Positions 1 to 22,581 of a stretch of 32,560 bases of DNA are shown piece by piece. The notes below the pieces were generated by a model that saw nothing but the letters and a program-made list of their open reading frames with translations, made no database searches and was not told the DNA's origin. The first letter of the stretch is position 1. The number at the start of each line of letters is the position of its first letter. Position numbers and translations under genes: made by a program. Source of the DNA: Streptomyces sp. NRRL WC-3618 (GTDB lineage: Bacteria > Actinomycetota > Actinomycetes > Streptomycetales > Streptomycetaceae); NCBI RefSeq assembly GCF_001280005.1, contig NZ_LGDW01000491.1, forward strand, positions 1 through 32,560, read 5' to 3'.

Positions 1-885
1 ACGCGGAGGCTCGACCGGCGGGCTCGGCCAGCCGGAACGGGGGGCGGCCTCCGGGACCCCCCGGCCCGGCCCGTCCTCTCCGGCCGAAAACCCCTCCCGC
101 GAGGACGCGGACGCGGACCCGACGCCGGGCGCGGATGCCGGACGCGGCGGAACATCCCACCCGCCACCGGCGCCCTCCTCCGCACGCAGACCCTCGGGAC
201 TGGCCGCCCGGCCATCTTCACCAGCGTCCACAAACCCGGCACCCGGCACCGAAGACGGGCGCGGCGGAGCGCCCCACGCGCCACCCGTGGCATCAGTGGA
301 TTCCGGGGCCCCGGGGCTGCCGGCTGGTCGGGCACCGTCGCCGGACAGCGCCGGTTTCCGTCCGGGAGCGGGGGGCGTCGGAGGGGTCGGCGGGAGCGGG
401 GTGCGGGTGCGGTCCGTCGGTGGGGGCGGAGTGTGGTTGCGGAAGCCCGGTGGGAAGGTCGCGGGGCCCGGGGGCATCGCGGGCGGCGGCTCCCACGGGG
501 CGCGGGGGCGTCCGGGTCCGCTGCCGCGCGTACCGTCCCACGTCCCGTAGGGGGCGCGGTCGCGCTGCGGCGGGACCCCGGGGCCGGGGGCGCCGGTCGG
601 CGGCTCCGGTGCCCGGCCCTCTCCCAGCCGGCGCCGCACGGGCGCGGCAGACGATGGCGGGGCCGCCTCCCCCAAGTCGTCCCACGCCTCACCCTCCCCG
701 GACGCGGTCTCGCGCCCGAACACCTCGTCGGTCTTGGGGACGTCGACCGTGCCCGACGCCGAGGCGAACCGGTCGTCCAGGGAGTCGCCCGCGGCCGTGG
801 GCCCGGTGTCGTCGGTGGAGTCGTCGTACAACTGCCCCCACCAGTCGTCCTCGTGACCGCTGGACCTCTCCCCCTGCTGGCTCAT
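1..885 (-). CDS. N-terminal part of a Pro/Gly-rich protein (runs off left edge)
   Basis: An uninterrupted minus-strand frame of 295 codons runs from the ATG at 885 to the window edge, so only the N-terminus is present. It starts MSQQGERSSGHEDDWWGQLY, followed by an acidic stretch to about residue 80. After that come more than 200 residues dominated by Pro, Gly, Ala and Arg with no recognisable fold: a long disordered linker. No Shine-Dalgarno lies at a normal distance, but GACAAT ends 7 nt before the ATG, so leaderless transcription is possible (inference). The catalytic part, if any, is outside the window. From memory, similar N-termini occur on streptomycete PP2C-type phosphatase or signalling proteins, but nothing in the visible part proves it. 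That the frame is coding is likely; the function is unknown. Confidence 0.75.
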   Translation of the reverse strand, partial: MSQQGERSSGHEDDWWGQLYDDSTDDTGPTAAGDSLDDRFASASGTVDVPKTDEVFGRETASGEGEAWDDLGEAAPPSSAAPVRRRLGEGRAPEPPTGAPGPGVPPQRDRAPYGTWDGTRGSGPGRPRAPWEPPPAMPPGPATFPPGFRNHTPPPPTDRTRTPLPPTPPTPPAPGRKPALSGDGARPAGSPGAPESTDATGGAWGAPPRPSSVPGAGFVDAGEDGRAASPEGLRAEEGAGGGWDVPPRPASAPGVGSASASSREGFSAGEDGPGRGVPEAAPRSGWPSPPVEPPR

Positions 886-1011
886 GCCCTCGATTGTCCA
901 CCGTATGGGCCGGTTGAAAACGGGGCATCCGCAAAATCCGGCGGGGTGTTCCGTCGTGAACGGCGTGTTCGACGGCGTGTCGGATGACACGGCGAACACC
1001 CGTGCGAACAA

Positions 1012-1055
1012 GTCGCCGGGCGGCCCCACCTCCCACGGGAGAGCCGCCCGGCGAC
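1012..1055. repeat. 13-bp perfect inverted repeat in divergent intergenic region
   Basis: GTCGCCGGGCGGC (1012-1024) and its exact complement (1043-1055) flank an 18-nt loop that contains a smaller TCCC/GGGA hairpin. It sits in the 294-bp gap between the divergent Pro/Gly-rich gene and the DUF456 gene. No recognised gene ends here, so it is not an obvious terminator; a 5' UTR structure or an unannotated small transcript would explain it. Apart from this hairpin I see nothing specific in 886-1179. Confidence 0.6.
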
Positions 1056-1179
1056 GCCGGAGTGACCAGCCACGGTGCGCTCCGATCCGAGTGTGACCCG
1101 TCTGCCTACGGTCTTCCTCGGGTTCCGCTGTGGGCTCCCCTGACCTGCGGCTACCCCCGCTCTCAGGCACGCTGGGCAG

Positions 1180-8798: not shown

Positions 8799-10241
8799 AT
8801 GAAGGCGACCGCGCAGATCGGCGTCACCGGCCTTGCGGTGATGGGCCGGAATCTGGCCCGGAACTTCGCCCGGCACGGCTACACCGTGGCCCTCCACAAC
8901 CGGACCCCCGCCAGGACCAAGGCGCTGGTCGAGGATTTCGGGCACGAGGGCGACTTCGTGCCGGCGGAGACGGCCGAGCAGTTCGTGGCGGCCCTGGAGC
9001 GGCCCCGGCGGCTCATGATCATGGTGCAGGCGGGGGCGGCCACGGATGCGGTGATCGACGAGTTCGCCGCGCTCCTGGAGCCCGGCGACATGATCATCGA
9101 CGGGGGCAACGCCCACTTCACCGACACCCGCCGCCGGGAACAGGCGCTGCGCGGGCTCGGTGTCCACTTCGTGGGGGTGGGCGTCTCGGGCGGTGAGGAA
9201 GGCGCCCTGAACGGGCCCAGCATCATGCCCGGCGGCTCGGCGGGGGCGTACGCCGCGCTCGGGCCGATGCTCGAGACGATCAGTGCCAAGGTGGACGGCG
9301 AGCCCTGTGTCACCCATGTCGGCACGGACGGCGCCGGGCACTTCGTGAAGATGGTGCACAACGGCATCGAGTACGCCGACATGCAGCTGATCGGCGAGGC
9401 CTACGACCTGCTGCGCCAGGTCGGCGGTTATGAACCGGCGCGGATCGCCGAGGTCTTCCGTCAGTGGAACAAGGGGCGCCTCGACTCGTATCTGATGGAG
9501 ATCAGCGCCGAGGTGCTCGCCCACACCGACGCCGCCACCGGCAGCCCCTTCGTGGACGTGGTGGCCGACGCGGCCGGGCAGAAGGGCACCGGCCGCTGGA
9601 CCGTACACACCGCCCTGGAGCTCGGTTCCCCGGTCACCGCCATCGCCCAGGCCACCTTCGCCCGCGCCGCCTCGGGCCAGCGCGCCCTGCGCGCCGCGTA
9701 CCGGGAGCTGCCCGGCGGGAGCGGCGGGGAGCTCACCGCGTGCGAGGCGGAGCGGTTCGCCTGCCTGGTGGAGCACGCCCTGTACGCGTCGAAGCTCATC
9801 GCCTACGACCAGGGCTGGAAGATGATCCGGGACGCGTCGGTGGAGTACGGCTGGGACATCGACCTCGGCGCGATCGCGAGGATCTGGCGCGGTGGCTGCA
9901 TCGTCCGCGCCGCCTTCCTCGACCGGGTCCGCGCCGCGTACGCCGCCGAACCTCACCGGGTCACCCTGCTCACCGAGGAGGGGTTCACGGCCGAGATCGC
10001 CGAGGCCCAGGTCCCCTGGCGCGAGGTCGTCGCCACGGCCGCCCGGCACGGCGTCCCCGTCCCGGCCTTCTCCGCCGCCCTGTCGTACTACGACACCCTG
10101 CGCGCCGAGCGCCTGCCCGCTGCTCTCACCCAGGGCCAGCGCGACTACTTCGGCGCCCACACCTACCGGCGCACCGACCGCGAGGGCCGCTTCCACACCC
10201 TCTGGGAGCGGGCCGACCGCAGTGAGACCGAGCTGATCTGA
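8799..10241 (+). CDS. gnd: 6-phosphogluconate dehydrogenase, decarboxylating
   Basis: A 480-residue oxidative pentose phosphate enzyme that converts 6-phosphogluconate to ribulose 5-phosphate and CO2 with NADP reduction. The N-terminal Rossmann motif GVTGLAVMGRNLARN (8-22), IIDGGNAHFTDT (99-110), substrate loop SGGEEGALNGPSIMPGG (130-146), and the catalytic segment KMVHNGIEYAD with Lys184, Asn188 and Glu191 are all intact. The all-helical C-terminal domain carries the GQKGTGRWT signature. The length is that of the long (NADP-type) form. The ATG at 8799 has GAAGGAG 7-8 nt upstream. It is monocistronic, followed by a strong hairpin before the convergent CBM2 protein. No zwf or other pathway gene is adjacent. 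Confidence 0.97.
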   Translation: MKATAQIGVTGLAVMGRNLARNFARHGYTVALHNRTPARTKALVEDFGHEGDFVPAETAEQFVAALERPRRLMIMVQAGAATDAVIDEFAALLEPGDMIIDGGNAHFTDTRRREQALRGLGVHFVGVGVSGGEEGALNGPSIMPGGSAGAYAALGPMLETISAKVDGEPCVTHVGTDGAGHFVKMVHNGIEYADMQLIGEAYDLLRQVGGYEPARIAEVFRQWNKGRLDSYLMEISAEVLAHTDAATGSPFVDVVADAAGQKGTGRWTVHTALELGSPVTAIAQATFARAASGQRALRAAYRELPGGSGGELTACEAERFACLVEHALYASKLIAYDQGWKMIRDASVEYGWDIDLGAIARIWRGGCIVRAAFLDRVRAAYAAEPHRVTLLTEEGFTAEIAEAQVPWREVVATAARHGVPVPAFSAALSYYDTLRAERLPAALTQGQRDYFGAHTYRRTDREGRFHTLWERADRSETELI

Positions 10242-10270
10242 CCTCGGCCGCCCGCACTGTGGGAACAACG

Positions 10271-10308
10271 CCGGCCACGCCCGTAGCGGTATCGCTCGGC
10301 GTGGCCGG
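10271..10308. terminator. Bidirectional terminator hairpin, gnd / ECF-CBM2 gene
   Basis: CCGGCCACGCC (10271-10281) pairs perfectly with GGCGTGGCCGG (10298-10308), and an inner AGCG/CGCT stem continues the hairpin. It lies between two convergent stop codons (10241 and 10331), where a terminator for both strands is expected. Confidence 0.75.
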
Positions 10309-10330
10309 ATCAGTACGGGCCGCCAGGAAC

Positions 10331-11866
10331 TCAGATCGTGCAGTGGCTGCCGTTGAGCGTGACGTCGAACGGGGCCCCGTTGGTGCCCTGCCAGCTGGAG
10401 AGGAAGCCGAAGGAGACCGTGCCGTCCTCGGCGACCGCCCTGTTGTAGTCGGCGGCCGTGGCCGTGACGCGGGCGCCGTCCTGGCGGAAGTTCGCGTCCC
10501 ACATCTGGCTGACCCGCTGGCCGTCGTGGAAGCTCCAGGAGATGCTCCAGCCGTCCAGGGCCTTCGTGGTGGTGACGCTGATGGTGGCCTGGAAGCCGTC
10601 CGGCCACTCGTTGACGAGGTCGTAGTCGACGTCGCAGAACGCCGGGGCGCTCTTGTCGGGGCTCGGCTTCGGGTCCGGCTTCGGCGTCTCACCGCGCTCG
10701 GTGGACGAGGAGGTCCCCTGGGGCTCCGTGTCGGGCCGGCCCGCGGACGAGTCGCTGCCCGGGGCGGAGTCCGGGTCCGAGTTCGAGCCCGAGCCGGAGT
10801 CCGACGGCAGGGGGGACACGGACGGGGTGGAGCCCACGGGGACGGTCAGGCTGGACGGCAGGACGGACTCCGGGTCCGCCATGGGATTGGAGCCGTGCGC
10901 GCCGCCCCGCGCGGTGGCGTCGCCGTCCGAGCCGCCGAAGGGCATCAGCGACACCGTGAGCGTCAGCACCGAGACGATGACGGCCGCGACCATGATCGCC
11001 GTACGGCCGATGCGCGGACGGAACTCGCCGATGGTGAGGCCCGTGTCCACGCCCGCCTCACCGCGACCGCCGAGCAGACCGGCGTCGGCCGCGCGGCGGC
11101 GGCGTTCCAGGTAGGCGAGCCCGCCCCAGCCGATGACGCCACCGGCGAGCGCGGCGGGCAGTCCGCCGATCCCGCCGTACATCCGCAGACAGGCGGCGGC
11201 CTCGGCGCACTCCACGCAGGTCGCGAGGTGCCAGGAGAGGTCCTCGGGGACCTCGGCGCCCTGCGAGCGGCTGACCGCGTCGAGCAGCCGGGCGAAGGCG
11301 CGGCACTCGGAGCTCATCGGGAGGTCGAGGAGGTTGCGCTGGCACCGGTCCCTGAACAGGCTGCGTACCTGGGCGAGTTCCTCGGCGGCGTTGTGCGGAT
11401 CGAGGCCGAGCCGGCGGGCCACGACGGGGATCGGCAGTGCCTCCACCTCGGCCAGCCAGAGCAGGGCGGCGTCCGGCTCCTGCATGTCACGCAGGGCGCG
11501 CAGCGCGAGCGGGCGGCGCAGCGGCGGCCCCACGTACCGGGCGGCCTTGTCGGAGTTGAGCCACAGCCGCAGGTCGGGGTCGAGCTGGTGGCCGTGCCCG
11601 GTCTCCTCCCAGGACGCGGCGGTACTGCGAACCGCCGCCAGCAGCAGCGGTATCCAGGGCAGGCGGGGCATGCGGCGCCCGCTGTTGCGGGCCCCGAAGT
11701 CGGCGGCCCGGGCCGCGTGGATTCCGTGCGTGAACGCCTCGGCGGCCAGTTCGGTGCCGGCGGAGGAGCCGGACGTGCACAGGTCGGCGTACGAGAGGAC
11801 CGCGTCCCAGCACTCGGAGAACAGCGCTGCCTCGGCGGCGTCCTGAGGGGTTGGCAGATCTGGCAT
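10331..11866 (-). CDS. ECF-sigma-like / zinc anti-sigma / membrane / CBM2 fusion protein
   Basis: 511 residues in modules. (a) Residues ~10-180: helical region resembling sigma-70 regions 2 and 4, the latter as LLWLAEVEALPIPVVARRLG followed by LDPHNAAEELAQVRSLFRDR, like an ECF region 4 helix-turn-helix. (b) HLATCVEC (213-220), a His/Cys zinc motif as in ZAS/zf-HC2 anti-sigma factors. (c) Two hydrophobic segments (231-253, weaker; 289-308, strong). (d) A Ser/Pro/Asp-rich linker (315-407). (e) A CBM2-type carbohydrate-binding domain (408-511) with Cys411/Cys509 as the probable disulfide, Trp421, Trp440, Trp444 and Trp456, and the FGFLSSWQGTNGAPF signature. This is the plan described for actinobacterial ECF groups with large C-terminal extensions (ECF52/53 type). 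It probably senses an outside polysaccharide and controls transcription. GGAG lies 9 nt before the ATG. Confidence 0.85.
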   Translation of the reverse strand: MPDLPTPQDAAEAALFSECWDAVLSYADLCTSGSSAGTELAAEAFTHGIHAARAADFGARNSGRRMPRLPWIPLLLAAVRSTAASWEETGHGHQLDPDLRLWLNSDKAARYVGPPLRRPLALRALRDMQEPDAALLWLAEVEALPIPVVARRLGLDPHNAAEELAQVRSLFRDRCQRNLLDLPMSSECRAFARLLDAVSRSQGAEVPEDLSWHLATCVECAEAAACLRMYGGIGGLPAALAGGVIGWGGLAYLERRRRAADAGLLGGRGEAGVDTGLTIGEFRPRIGRTAIMVAAVIVSVLTLTVSLMPFGGSDGDATARGGAHGSNPMADPESVLPSSLTVPVGSTPSVSPLPSDSGSGSNSDPDSAPGSDSSAGRPDTEPQGTSSSTERGETPKPDPKPSPDKSAPAFCDVDYDLVNEWPDGFQATISVTTTKALDGWSISWSFHDGQRVSQMWDANFRQDGARVTATAADYNRAVAEDGTVSFGFLSSWQGTNGAPFDVTLNGSHCTI

Positions 11867-12022
11867 TTAGGGGGACTCCAGCATCAACGGCTTGCACACG
11901 CCAACGTCAAGGTCAAGGTAAAAACGTCAACTCACCCCATAAACAGAGGAGTTGGGGAACGTTTCACAGAACGGAGCCCCGAGCTTTTCACGTTTCCCGC
12001 ACAACTGACAAGCTACGTATTC

Positions 12023-12040
12023 ACATGTCGGCACATGTCA
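12023..12040. promoter_or_regulatory. Tandem CACATGTC repeat upstream of the ECF-CBM2 gene
   Basis: CACATGTC occurs at 12022-12029 and 12032-12039, exactly 10 bp apart, with ACATGT palindromic in each copy. The surrounding gap (11867-12073, 207 bp) is noticeably less GC-rich than its neighbours and holds no gene that I can support. Closer to the start, on the minus strand, TTGACCTTGACG could provide a -35 element. Binding-site function is inferred. Confidence 0.3.
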
Positions 12041-12073
12041 ACGCGGCTCGCCGTACAGGGTTCGCGGGATGAA

Positions 12074-12118
12074 CGGTGCGATCCGCACGAGTCCACATCC
12101 CTCATACGGATCGCACCG
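12074..12118 (-). terminator. Terminator hairpin after the radical SAM gene
   Basis: CGGTGCGATCCG (12074-12085) pairs over 12 bp with CGGATCGCACCG (12107-12118); the loop is 21 nt. The hairpin begins 10 nt after the minus-strand stop at 12128 and separates the radical SAM gene from the ECF-CBM2 gene, which is on the same strand, so the two are probably separate transcripts. Confidence 0.7.
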
Positions 12119-12127
12119 GCGTTCTGT

Positions 12128-13450
12128 TCAGACCTTCGTCACCGAATCCCGGGCCGGCAGGCTGTCCATGAAGGAGCTGACGGAGAACACCGCGCGGCCG
12201 GGGCCGGGTTCGCCGTAGCCGGGGGGCGAGTCGAGGCCGAAGTCGTCCATCGTGGCGCGGTAGGCCTCCAGCAGACGGATGTGGTACTCCAGCGGCGCCC
12301 CCTGGGGGTTGGCCTTGCCGAGCGGGGTGGTGGGCTCGGGGCACCAGGTGGTGAAGCGGGGCGTGATGCCGTGCGACATGAAGAAGCGCAGGCCCTCGGT
12401 GGTGGAGGCGATGGCCTCGTCGACCGTCGTGAACCCGGACGGCGCGGCCATCTCCACACCGGCCACGAAGTTGGGGATGACGTTGCGGGCGCCGAAGACC
12501 TCGGCCGAGTCGAGGATGCGCCGGTGCCACTCGTCGCGGCCCACGTAGCGCTCCTTGCCGGGGCAGTACAGCTCGAAGAGCTTGCGGTCCCACACCTCGT
12601 AGTTGGGGTGGTAGATCTGCACGCCGTAGTCCTTGAAGCGCTGTACGTCGTCCTTCGGCAGGGCCTGGGCGACGACCTTGCCGATCCAGCGGCCCGGGAA
12701 GTGCTCCTCGATGGCCTTCGCGTACATGCCGTAGAAGTCGGCCTCGTCGCGGCCCTGGAGCTTCGAGGTGATCGCACCGCCGGTGAGCGTGTAGGCGGTG
12801 GAGGTCCGGTTGGTGTCGTACCGGTTGATGATCTCCAGCGCTTCGAGGACCTCGTCCACGTCCTTGACGCCGGTGTACGGACGGCCGGCCGCCTTGTGCT
12901 GGCGCCAGTTGTGGTTGATGTCGCAGTACTGGCACTCCTCCTTGGCGCCGAAGTACTGGCAGACCCGGAAGACGGTCAGATAGATCAGGTAGCCCCACTG
13001 GATCGTGGGGGCGACCTCCATGACGGACTTCCCGTTGGACAGCTTGTGCCGGTAGTACTCCGGCATGGGCGGCACCCCGACGTCGGAGATCCGCTTCCCG
13101 TCCAGGTAGAGGCCGAGCACACCGTCCTCGCCTGCGGCCACCCGGTAGGGCGACGCCGGGTTCACCCGCACCGACACGACGGTCCGGCGCAGGTCGTAGG
13201 GGCCGCCGGTGAGAATGATCTCCTCCGGCGGGCGGCGCAGCGCGGCCTCGCCCAGCTCGGGGAGGGTGCCGTGGTCGAAGGAGAAAATGAAGTACGACTT
13301 CGGCTTGACGTCGCCGCTCTCGTTGTCGCTGAGCGCGGACGGATCGAAGGCCACACCACCCCTGAGCAGGTCTTCCTTGAAGACGGCTTCCCGCGGTACG
13401 TGGGGAAAGCGCTCCATCAGATCCTCGACCAGCGCGGTGCGGCTGCCCAT
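12128..13450 (-). CDS. Radical SAM protein with noncanonical CX8CX2C cluster motif
   Basis: A 440-residue protein. The cluster-binding segment reads CQYFGAKEECQYC (Cys164, Cys173, Cys176), spacing CX8CX2C instead of the usual CX3CX2C. The layout is otherwise that of a radical SAM TIM-barrel: a long N-terminal domain (1-~160, with GVPPMPEYYRHKL near 125-137), the cluster, the LTGGAI segment (SAM-binding GGE-like strand), IYHPNYEVWD, VIPNFVAGVEMA, and a C-terminal FTTWCPEP with one further Cys. I recognise it as a conserved streptomycete type with no assigned reaction that I know of. The ATG at 13450 was chosen because GGAGG lies 9 nt before it; an upstream in-frame ATG would add 16 unsupported residues. 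It is divergent from alditol oxidase, but no shared pathway is known. Confidence 0.88.
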   Translation of the reverse strand: MGSRTALVEDLMERFPHVPREAVFKEDLLRGGVAFDPSALSDNESGDVKPKSYFIFSFDHGTLPELGEAALRRPPEEIILTGGPYDLRRTVVSVRVNPASPYRVAAGEDGVLGLYLDGKRISDVGVPPMPEYYRHKLSNGKSVMEVAPTIQWGYLIYLTVFRVCQYFGAKEECQYCDINHNWRQHKAAGRPYTGVKDVDEVLEALEIINRYDTNRTSTAYTLTGGAITSKLQGRDEADFYGMYAKAIEEHFPGRWIGKVVAQALPKDDVQRFKDYGVQIYHPNYEVWDRKLFELYCPGKERYVGRDEWHRRILDSAEVFGARNVIPNFVAGVEMAAPSGFTTVDEAIASTTEGLRFFMSHGITPRFTTWCPEPTTPLGKANPQGAPLEYHIRLLEAYRATMDDFGLDSPPGYGEPGPGRAVFSVSSFMDSLPARDSVTKV

Positions 13451-13582: not shown

Positions 13583-14845
<1,263 letters not shown>

Positions 14846-14897: not shown

Positions 14898-14933
14898 AAC
14901 CCCTTGTCGAACCTCCCCCGCTGCCCATAGCCT
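14898..14933 (+). promoter_or_regulatory. Promoter with shared operator motif upstream of ROK regulator
   Basis: AACCCCTTGTCGAA (14898-14911) contains a -35 TTGTCG (14904-14909), followed after 18 bp by TAGCCT (14928-14933), a fair match to the Streptomyces -10 pattern TAGnnT. The same 14-bp motif, with one change, covers the -35 of the transporter operon at 16380. Predicted transcription starts near 14940, leaving a 5' UTR of about 95 nt. A site for the ROK protein itself is inferred. Confidence 0.5.
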
Positions 14934-15034
14934 TGCGCCGCGCCGGTGCCGTCTACTCCGGTCTGTCCGCATTCAGATCCGTACGGAATTCAGGTCCGCA
15001 CGGAGATCTGCACGGCGAGGGGGCAAGCCCGGTG

Positions 15035-16270
15035 GTGAAGCGCACGTCACGTGACATCCGCACCGCGAACCGCTATGAGGTGCTTCGCCAGATCATCGCC
15101 CGTTCTCCTACCTCCCGGCAGGAGCTGGCTGCCGCCAGCGGGCTGAGCCTGGCCACCGTCGCCACGCTCGTCGGCGAGCTGATCGAGCTGCGGATGATCA
15201 CCGAGGTCGGGTTCGAGGACTCGGCCGGTGGCCGTCCCCGGGGCCTGGTGGCCGTCAACGCGTCGGGGGGCGCGCTGATCGGCGTCGACATCGCGGAGAC
15301 GTACGTCCATGTCGAGCTGTTCGATCTCGGGCTGAACGTGCTGGCCCGCGCCGACGAGGACATGCGCCCCGGCGAGAGCCTGCCCGAGCAGGTGGTCAGC
15401 CAGGTGGCCGCCGCCGTCGGCTCCGTGGTCGCGCAGGCCGGCATCGAGGGCTCGCGGGTGCTGGGCGTCGGGGTGAGCGTGCCGGGGCAGGTCGACCGGG
15501 ACACCGGCGTCGCGGAGTACGCGCCCAACTGGGACTGGCACGACGTGCCGCTGCTCGACCTGCTGTCCGAGGTCATCGCCTACCCCCTCTACCTGGACAA
15601 TCCGCTGCGCGCCGGCGCGGTCGCCGAGATGTGGTTCGGGGCGGCGCGCGGGCGCGGGGACGCGGTGGTGGTCAACCTCGGGACGGGAGTCGGCGCGGGG
15701 CTCGCGCTCCAGGGCGGGCTGTACCGGGGGGTGAGCAACAGCGCGGGCGAGTGGGGTCACACCACGCTCGTGCTGGACGGGCGGCCCTGCCGCTGCGGCA
15801 ACCACGGCTGCGTGGAGGCCTACGTCGGCGCGCCCGGCATCATGCTCAACCTGCGGGAACTCAGCCCGGGGAGCCCGCTGTTGCACCCCGAGGACCAGAC
15901 CGCCACCATCGACGCGCTGGCCCTCGGCGTGGACGCGAACGACCCGGTGGCGATCGAGGTCGTACGGGAGACCGCCCGCTACATCGGTGCGGGCATCGCG
16001 AACCTGGTCAACCTCCTCAACCCCGAAGTGGTCGTGCTCAGCAGCTGGGTCGCCCGCAGGCTCGGCGAGCCGCTGCTGCGCGAGGTGCGCGAGGCCGTCG
16101 GCCGGCACGCGCTCAGACGGCCGTTCGCCGCCACCGAGATCGTCCTGTCCCCCATCCCCACCGATCCGGCGTGCCTGGGCGCGGCGACGTTCGCCCTCGA
16201 AGGCGCCCTGTCCTTGGTGACCCAGCGGGCGTCGGCAGCCCGGCGCACTGGCCCGATGCCGCTGAAATAG
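15035..16270 (+). CDS. ROK-family transcriptional regulator of the galactoside operon
   Basis: A 411-residue regulator from GTG at 15035 (a second GTG sits directly before it; GAGGGGG lies upstream). An N-terminal winged helix (about 12-75) includes the helix-turn-helix SRQELAAASGLSLATVATLV. The ROK domain has GVDIAETYVHVELFD (83-97), GVGVSVPGQVD (144-154), the EWGHT motif (239-243), and the zinc site CRCGNHGCVE (Cys252, Cys254, Cys259 with His242). Where ROK sugar kinases have the catalytic Asp (DND), this protein has DNP (188-190), so it should bind sugar without phosphorylating it. It precedes the binding protein gene on the same strand, separated by a terminator and a second promoter, and both promoters share a motif. 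Most probably it represses this locus until a sugar binds. Confidence 0.9.
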   Translation: MKRTSRDIRTANRYEVLRQIIARSPTSRQELAAASGLSLATVATLVGELIELRMITEVGFEDSAGGRPRGLVAVNASGGALIGVDIAETYVHVELFDLGLNVLARADEDMRPGESLPEQVVSQVAAAVGSVVAQAGIEGSRVLGVGVSVPGQVDRDTGVAEYAPNWDWHDVPLLDLLSEVIAYPLYLDNPLRAGAVAEMWFGAARGRGDAVVVNLGTGVGAGLALQGGLYRGVSNSAGEWGHTTLVLDGRPCRCGNHGCVEAYVGAPGIMLNLRELSPGSPLLHPEDQTATIDALALGVDANDPVAIEVVRETARYIGAGIANLVNLLNPEVVVLSSWVARRLGEPLLREVREAVGRHALRRPFAATEIVLSPIPTDPACLGAATFALEGALSLVTQRASAARRTGPMPLK

Positions 16271-17774: not shown

Positions 17775-18740
17775 ATGTCGACGACCAAGACGCGCGATCC
17801 CGCGCGCCCCGCCTCGGCGAAGGCCTCACCGGCCAAGCCGCGGCGGGCCCTGCGGGGCAGCCCCACCGTCAACTTCTGGCTCTTCACCGGGCCCTTCCTC
17901 ATCGGCCTGGCGATCTTCGTCTACGCGCCGATCCTCTGGAGCCTCTGGCTCAGCTTCTTCGAGGCCCGCTTCACCGTCACGCCCGACAAGTTCGTCGGCT
18001 TCCAGAACTACACGTACATGCTGACGAACGACGACTTCGTCGGCTCGCTCGGCACCTTCACCGCCTTCGCCGCGTTCATCGTGCCCACCACCTGGGCGCT
18101 CTCACTGGGCCTGGCCCTGCTGGTGAACCGGCTGCGCTTCATGCGGGCGTTCTTCCGGTCGGTCTTCTTCCTGCCGACCGCGTGCAGTTACGTGGCCGCC
18201 TCGCTGATCTGGAAGATGTCCATCTTCAGCGGCGTCCGGTTCGGCCTGATGAACACGATCCTCGGCTGGTTCGGGATCGACAACATCGCCTGGCTGGCCG
18301 ACCCCAACCCGCCCTGGTACTGGGTGGTCATCGTCAGCGCCCGGCTGTGGCTGCAGGCCGGCTTCTACATGATCCTGTTCATCGCCGCGCTGCAGAACAT
18401 CCCGGGCGAGCTGTACGAGGCCGCCGCCATCGACGGCGCCAAGCCCGGCTGGCAGACCTTCCGGTACATCACCCTGCCCCAGCTGCGCGCCACGTCCACC
18501 GCGGTGATCCTGCTGCTGCTGGTCGCCGCCTACCAGGCCTTCGACGAGTTCTTCAACCTCCTGTCGAAGACCACCTGGGGCCGCCCACCCCTCGTCGAGC
18601 TGTACTACAAGGCCCTGGGCGAGAGCCAGGACTACGGTTCCGGCAGCGCCGGCGCGGTCATCCTGACCGTGCTGATCTGCGCCGTGACCCTGCTCCAGGG
18701 CAAGTTCATGGGCTTCGGAAGGGGGGAGGAGTCCAAGTGA
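17775..18740 (+). CDS. ABC sugar importer permease, MalF-like
   Basis: A 321-residue inner-membrane permease. A basic N-terminal tail (1-~30) precedes six predicted membrane segments beginning at about 34, 94, 126, 183, 236 and 292. The ATPase-contact EAA loop reads ELYEAAAIDGAKPG (212-225). Membrane component of the importer with the next gene; 20 nt after the binding protein. Its stop codon overlaps the next start in GTGA. The substrate should be the one bound by the lipoprotein upstream. Confidence 0.93.
   Translation: MSTTKTRDPARPASAKASPAKPRRALRGSPTVNFWLFTGPFLIGLAIFVYAPILWSLWLSFFEARFTVTPDKFVGFQNYTYMLTNDDFVGSLGTFTAFAAFIVPTTWALSLGLALLVNRLRFMRAFFRSVFFLPTACSYVAASLIWKMSIFSGVRFGLMNTILGWFGIDNIAWLADPNPPWYWVVIVSARLWLQAGFYMILFIAALQNIPGELYEAAAIDGAKPGWQTFRYITLPQLRATSTAVILLLLVAAYQAFDEFFNLLSKTTWGRPPLVELYYKALGESQDYGSGSAGAVILTVLICAVTLLQGKFMGFGRGEESK

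Positions 18741-19671: not shown

Positions 19672-22581
<2,910 letters not shown>

Follow-up and report, generated by a model that had tools for sequence, protein, structure and literature searches.

The window analysed here is a stretch of 32,560 nucleotides from Streptomyces sp. NRRL WC-3618 (contig NZ_LGDW01000491.1 of assembly GCF_001280005.1, positions 1 to 32,560), and our subject is one gene on its minus strand (10331..11866), whose 511 codons, counted from an ATG at 11866, encode a fused sigma-like, zinc anti-sigma, transmembrane and CBM2 protein. From the N-terminus, and always on the minus strand, the chain runs through a sigma-2-like region (residues 10-104; 11555..11839), placed by profile alignment and models, a sigma-4-like helix-turn-helix region (residues 118-181; 11324..11515), a three-helix zinc anti-sigma domain of the ASDI/ZAS type (residues 184-232; 11171..11317), a pair of helices that is not a membrane helix (residues 235-261, GVIGWGGLAYLERRRR; 11084..11164), a single transmembrane helix (residues 288-307; 10946..11005), a variable Ser/Pro-rich linker (residues 308-408; 10643..10945), and a CBM2 domain (residues 411-509; 10340..10636). 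The original prediction, made from the letters of the DNA, had described one chain joining sigma-like, zinc anti-sigma, membrane, linker and CBM2 modules; every one of these is present, and the observation of a fused protein is confirmed.

The CBM2 domain, as first proposed, matches Pfam PF00553 (E 1.2e-25; 90.2 bits, where the cut-off is 24), and the closest solved structures by sequence are 1exg and 6qfs. Residues W421, W456, Y474, C411 and C509 are invariant in 121/121 CBM2-family rows, and the three aromatic residues align with W, W and W of 1exg, so the aromatic face is conserved; we predict that the domain binds cellulose or a cellulose-like glucan. No enzyme domain and no response-regulator domain was recognised in the protein by Pfam. 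The zinc motif, also noted originally, is C188-x24-H213-x3-C217-x2-C220, with ligands invariant in 43/43 sequences of alignment A2 and throughout the 121 rows. Pfam zf-HC2 finds no match here at E ≤ 1. The features of a class I zinc anti-sigma are in place: Hx3Cx2C with an upstream Cys/His and a three-helix bundle (186-200, 208-216 and 218-227 in the model), followed by a fourth helix. We read the helix pair (235-245 and 249-261) as anti-sigma helix 4, because it lies where helix 4 is expected. In class I anti-sigmas, sigma-4 is bound by helices 1-3 and sigma-2 by helix 4 (excerpt of PMC7406223).

The sigma-like character of residues 1-190, which the original prediction made its test, is harder to see in a single sequence. 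Pfam and NCBIfam, including TIGR02937, find no sigma domain at E ≤ 1, and none of the 100 matches that PF08281 gives in the host genome lies in contig C490 (150 of the 319 first-look candidates scored). Against a profile built from 30 extracytoplasmic function (ECF) sigma factors of the host, the fusion protein scores 12.1 bits versus 7.9 for the best shuffle (199 scored of 200 made). Four sister proteins in the same genome give 28.2 (L002), 8.1 (L007), 7.8 (L003) and -0.2 bits (L005), the last three at shuffle level, and we do not take sigma identity from such scores. Because single-sequence scores are weak, the claim rests on three other comparisons. The first is a collinear profile-profile alignment to the 30 host ECFs (157 columns, probability 89%, E 2.1e-6), and the second a BLASTP match to the host ECF52 orthologue, L138 (E 8e-16 over 268 positions); each value comes from a single comparison. 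Finally, the AlphaFold2 model has the sigma-2/sigma-4 fold of an ECF sigma factor: the first 17 Foldseek rows are all sigma-factor or transcription-initiation entries, although none of the 17 reaches E 0.001 and the structural scores are middling. The resemblance to sigma regions 2 and 4 was thus found. In the models, the first sigma-2 helix, present in ECF52, is missing from the sigma-2-like region.

At several sites that align with the promoter contacts of sigma factors, the residue has been replaced throughout the CBM2 family. In sigma-E numbering we take these contacts to be R171, S172, F175 and R176. Positions 161 and 166 of the sigma-4-like region, which align with the promoter-contacting arginines, hold K or R in 0/121 CBM2-family rows, and position 162 is acidic in 97/121; a basic residue at 161 or 166 is present in 26/30 host ECFs, and one of the two is retained in 14/14 ECF52 orthologues. 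The sigma-2-like region is altered as well, with K or R at positions 81 and 87 in none of the 121 rows, and residue 39 of the fusion protein no longer carries the D of region 2.2. At position 87 the protein has E, where 25/30 host ECFs have R. The basic residues expected as promoter contacts in regions 4.2 and 2.4 are missing at 161, 166, 81 and 87. As reference ECFs we used the 30 PF08281 loci with the highest scores among those fetched from the host genome.

The altered interior is not decaying. We estimated the ratio of nonsynonymous to synonymous substitution rates (dN/dS) from 150/170 ortholog pairs of 78-93% identity, pairs that are not independent of one another. For the two sigma-like parts we obtained 0.20 and 0.25, for the zinc domain 0.21, and for the helix pair 235-261, the most constrained part of the protein, 0.076. 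The transmembrane helix has 0.19 and the stretch before it 0.34; the linker evolves fast (0.85), and CBM2 stands at 0.47. These low values indicate that the interior is under purifying selection.

The original prediction had noted hydrophobic segments and remarked that the CBM would lie inside if both spanned the membrane. We scanned the 121 CBM2-family rows with a 19-residue Kyte-Doolittle window, taking 1.6 as our threshold for a transmembrane segment. The first segment (228-262) has a maximum of 0.94-1.55 and is under the threshold in 121/121, and the AlphaFold2 model shows it as two confident short helices, 235-245 and 249-261; the second (283-315) has a maximum of 2.09-2.66 and is over the threshold in 121/121. 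We reject a topology with two membrane helices, because the first segment never exceeds 1.55. There is more positive charge in the 15 residues before the transmembrane helix than in the 15 after it in 106/121 rows, with 12 equal and 3 showing less. As a partial control, the matching first segment was located by a search string in only 22/120 proteins of the ricin-lectin set, where its maximum is 0.99, and the later helix exceeds 1.6 in 20 of those 22. Because the first stretch is no membrane helix and the second (288-307) spans, the protein is most simply read as crossing the membrane once, with the N-terminus predicted inside the cell and CBM2 outside; on paper, this settles the question in favour of one helix.

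Among 7998 candidates scored, 824 database proteins match the fusion protein at E ≤ 0.001. Every one of the 120 relatives listed has a CBM2 and aligns along 100% of the query; CBM2 enzymes that are not related may be among the other 704. When named genomes were scanned, 287 relatives came up, from which we kept 80 loci: 79 are Streptomyces records, and the remaining one bears the label Actinobacteria bacterium OK074. In 80/80 the match covers the whole protein or almost the whole of it. Because full-length or nearly full-length matches occur both in the listed homologues and in all 80 loci, an assembly artefact does not account for the fusion, and we reject chance or artefact as its origin; homologues lacking the fusion, the counter-sign named originally, were not seen among the 120. 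Residues 1-320 are matched at E ≤ 1e-60 in 45 of 121 evenly drawn Streptomyces genomes. Even at three distant loci (L143, L145 and L147) the translated frame still ends, by eye, in a CBM2-like stretch. The closest protein among those listed, at 96% identity, is labelled Streptomyces turgidiscabies, and another of those listed (P0021) bears the name S. avermitilis. Orthologues occur in species named after plant scab; as they also occur in many other species, this is not a pathogen-specific gene.

The four sister proteins of the host genome match within residues 11-408 (L002, L003, L005 and L007, on contigs C445, C130 and C460). L002, L005 and L007 are complete and have a Ricin_B_lectin outer domain, and L003 is cut by a contig end. 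On C445, two of the four are separated by about 10 kb. The L007 paralogue is closely preceded, at 209-1150 (+) of its locus, by a gene whose product resembles, by eye, a SigB/SigF-type sigma factor (PF08281 match at C460:29954-30097). The host also has a further one-piece sigma/zinc form, L139 (424-2265, minus strand, 613 aa), with a very Pro-rich C-terminus in which no outer domain was recognised. We built a tree of 58 rows: the fusion protein with 10/120 of its CBM2 relatives, L002 with 12/120 ricin proteins, 14 ECF52 rows, 16/30 host ECFs, and L003, L005, L007 and L139. All fused forms stand apart from ordinary ECFs (100/99), a split that may be helped by the ECF rows being the sigma part only; the tree as a whole carries a long-branch warning. 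The CBM2, ricin and sister forms (27 rows) lie on a branch separate from ECF52 (100/99), and the fusion protein does not group with ECF52 orthologues. The stem of the CBM2 forms is long (1.33). The ECF52 rows do not form one clade, two of them being outlying, and two changes are needed rather than one. The BLASTP match and the shared domain order bear out the kinship with ECF52-type proteins first proposed; the fusion protein is related to an ECF52-type one-piece sigma/anti-sigma protein and probably descended from one.

Upstream of the gene lies a conserved element, GCTTGTCAGTTGTG-N7-CGTGAAARGCTC, of 26-33 bp (11981..12013, minus strand), which is a candidate promoter or operator. In an alignment of 21 upstream regions it is an unvarying block within otherwise unlike DNA. 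Across the window and the 80 loci, 76 match it perfectly, four have a single mismatch and one has 4, and it ends 79-121 bp before the start codon. The host genome has a single copy at up to 3 mismatches, and no regulon sharing the element was found there at that limit. At no more than 1 mismatch, the element is present in 40/45 of the gene-bearing genomes in our draw and in 0/76 of those without the gene at the cut-off. Each of the 40 has one copy, always 79-119 bp before the fusion gene; the gene-bearing genomes that lack it are G052, G066, G082, G087 and G091. The Fisher value for this link (7e-27) is inflated by shared descent, but the absence of extra copies stands. The distant orthologue loci L145, L146 and L147 have the element with 4-5 mismatches, and the best match at L143 (6 mismatches) is no better than the background at the paralogues: in the fetched stretches around L002, L003, L005, L007, L138 and L139 the element was not found, with 6-8 mismatches at best per locus. 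Expression of the fusion gene is probably set by this dedicated upstream element.

Between the element and the start codon is an inverted repeat, CAACTC...GAGTTG (11928..11954, minus strand), a hairpin or operator candidate whose arms are mostly conserved in 50 leaders. As a leader RNA hairpin it is weakly supported and we set it aside: over the window and 49/78 distinct leaders of the fetched loci, the consensus energy is just -1.63 kcal/mol, with 8 pairs of which 3 have changes on both sides. Rfam gives no hit to 11700-12300 at E ≤ 1, and neither a consensus sigma-70 promoter nor an intrinsic terminator was found in 10200-12300.

The next gene upstream, in the same direction, encodes a radical S-adenosylmethionine (SAM) protein (NF045502; 12128..13498, minus strand). 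It is upstream in 80/80 fetched loci, with a median identity of 91%, and occurs in 44/45 gene-bearing genomes. Mere neighbourhood may explain this pairing, because 28/76 gene-lacking genomes also have the radical SAM gene and because, in G052, G066 and G091, a long distance separates it from the fusion gene. A gene resembling FAD-linked sugar-lactone oxidases (13601-14845, plus strand) is near the fusion gene in 71/80 fetched loci. The window also has a ROK-family regulator gene (14933-16270), a transporter permease gene (17775-18740) and a LacZ-type GH2 beta-galactosidase (19684-22581, plus strand). No recognised sigma gene is present among the window neighbours scanned with Pfam.

We read the fusion protein as a single-pass membrane receptor whose sigma-like module acts by protein contacts and not as a conventional promoter-reading sigma factor, and we put the probability of this reading at roughly 0.48. 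Outside the cell, CBM2 would engage cellulose or a cellulose-like glucan, from plant matter or from the glucan of the cell's own hyphal tips. Binding would change the state of the cytoplasmic sigma-like/zinc pair, by proteolysis or by a conformational change, and the output would be a protein contact in which an anti-sigma domain, either the receptor's own or one belonging to a sister such as ECF52, or a different partner is bound or freed. We infer this kind of output because much of the means of contacting DNA has disappeared, and this loss is itself maintained across the family, whereas the zinc module and the remaining interior are conserved. Streptomyces lay down their own cellulose at hyphal tips (excerpt of PMC11022532), an attractive ligand because the linker has only ~100 residues and SCO4117, the ECF52 protein of Streptomyces coelicolor, acts in development (excerpt of PMC5826349). 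The original prediction had proposed a self-contained sensor that could release its sigma part. The sensor-like architecture stands, with CBM2 predicted outside; release as a working sigma factor is weakened, because several promoter-contact positions are replaced throughout the CBM2 family while ECF52 orthologues keep some of them.

Several observations weigh against the protein-contact reading, which has a serious rival in an altered, self-regulating sigma factor: glucan binding would lead to proteolysis, and the N-terminus would join RNA polymerase and read chiefly its own promoter. We regard this as possible, if less probable than our own reading. It would account for the sigma-like model and for the purifying selection on sigma-2 and sigma-4, and the kept replacements can also mean altered specificity. 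Position R80 is retained in 121/121 rows. ECF52, a working regulator, itself lacks R87 in 14/14 orthologues, so that the loss at position 87 is not special to the CBM2 family (R there in 0/14); the region 2.2 Gln is also gone in 14/14 (A13, S1), and 8/14 have no basic residue at 161. In region 2.3-2.4, L139 too has a charge of -1, and the charge ranges touch (ECFs from +1, the CBM2 family up to +2); the 30 reference ECFs lean canonical because the best-scoring loci were taken. The ricin sister family has R166 in 121/121 and K or R at 161 in 65/121; since it keeps R166, the loss is not clade-wide: the evidence for lost DNA contacts is unambiguous in the CBM2 branch but points both ways in the ricin branch. 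We also found no experiment on the fusion protein. The two-part element, once per genome and tied to the gene, would fit an autoregulated promoter, and positive autoregulation is suggested for SCO4117 (excerpt of PMC5826349). What stands against a working sigma factor is the lack of basic residues at 161 and 166 together with the acidic 162, the first sigma-2 helix missing from the model, the absence of a Pfam sigma match, and a gap between the element halves that, in our judgement, is unlike the usual ECF -35/-10 pair.

A surface anchor, in which CBM2 tethers hyphae to cellulose above a cytoplasmic stub that does not signal, would suit a conserved aromatic face on a single-pass protein without a recognised enzyme domain, but we consider it very unlikely: the cytoplasmic half evolves more slowly than CBM2 (dN/dS ~0.2 versus 0.47), the zinc ligands are invariant, and the paralogues keep the same interior under another outer domain. 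It is likewise improbable that the protein is mainly a membrane anti-sigma, whose zinc domain controls a separate sigma factor while the fused part occupies the site until the signal arrives. The invariant zinc motif, the highly conserved helix pair and the binding of both sigma regions by class I helices agree with it, and possible clients are the ECF52 orthologue and the 88 PF08281 matches over the cut-off, which are not necessarily all sigma factors; the scanned neighbours, however, include no recognised sigma gene. This alternative overlaps with the protein-contact reading. A bolder extension, which we think rather unlikely, is a Streptomyces receptor family, with CBM2 or ricin lectins outside, in which an ECF52-like sigma factor has turned decoy: paralogues would relay glucan binding outside by trading anti-sigma domains, pseudo-sigma receptors would tune the true ECF52-type sigmas, and cellulose at the cell's own tips may be what is sensed. 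The CBM2 branch matters because it separates the parts: the anti-sigma motif is conserved and the sugar-binding domain kept, but the sigma-like domain lacks a number of the residues that usually touch DNA. If signalling occurs, it would mark a route from transcription factor to receptor component, and the single-copy, gene-linked element offers a direct bench handle on regulation.

Among known systems, the closest is SCO4117, which has the same order of sigma-2, sigma-4, zinc finger, membrane helix, Pro-rich stretch and carbohydrate-binding module and the same proposed sensing logic, with smart00776 as its outer module instead of CBM2 (excerpt of PMC5826349). For ECF52, Pinto & Mascher 2016, as cited in that excerpt, proposed that polysaccharide is sensed and that proteolysis or a change of conformation then leads to release. 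Activation by proteolysis is expected for ECF48/52/53 (excerpt of PMC8999054), and ECF52/53-type proteins are reviewed as one-piece sensors whose carbohydrate domains await experimental validation (excerpts of PMC8999054 and PMC10766802). The layout and the release idea are therefore already known from ECF52. The fusion protein shares with ECF52 the single transmembrane helix with an outer Ser/Pro-rich extension, the C-terminal carbohydrate-binding module, and homology that extends through the VIGW helix; where ECF52 has a zinc finger after sigma-4 (pfam13490), the ligand pattern is invariant here and the zf-HC2 profile does not match. It differs in having no recognisable ECF sigma domain, in its replaced positions 39, 81, 161 and 166, and in its separate clade. 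In contrast, the host ECF52 orthologue has such a domain (TIGR02937 61 bits, Sigma70_r2 7.6e-13, with Sigma70_r4_2 below the cut-off) and matches zf-HC2. The ricin paralogues L002, L005 and L007 have the same N-terminal architecture and fall in the same clade, and the zinc ligands are common to L002, L007 and the ricin rows of A2; the lectin takes the place of CBM2.

Two further systems can be compared with the fusion protein. RsgI of Clostridium thermocellum, likened to it by description, is a chain separate from its SigI sigma factor. It too is a membrane protein, an anti-sigma that senses polysaccharide and is cleaved in the membrane (excerpt of PMC12203970). The sigma-like domain of PhyR, an alphaproteobacterial anti-anti-sigma, binds an anti-sigma factor (excerpt of PMC5830050); PhyR is a response regulator, and with no receiver domain in the fusion protein the principle alone is in common. 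Open-licence papers on ECF52, ECF53, C-terminal extensions, fused anti-sigmas and ricin domains yielded nothing on the CBM2 branch, and nothing was found in the open-licence literature on a membrane-anchored cellulose-binding sigma factor in Streptomyces. The novelty, as far as we have searched, lies in the CBM2 branch and its altered sigma surfaces, in the lectin sister family, in the settled topology and in the one-copy element.
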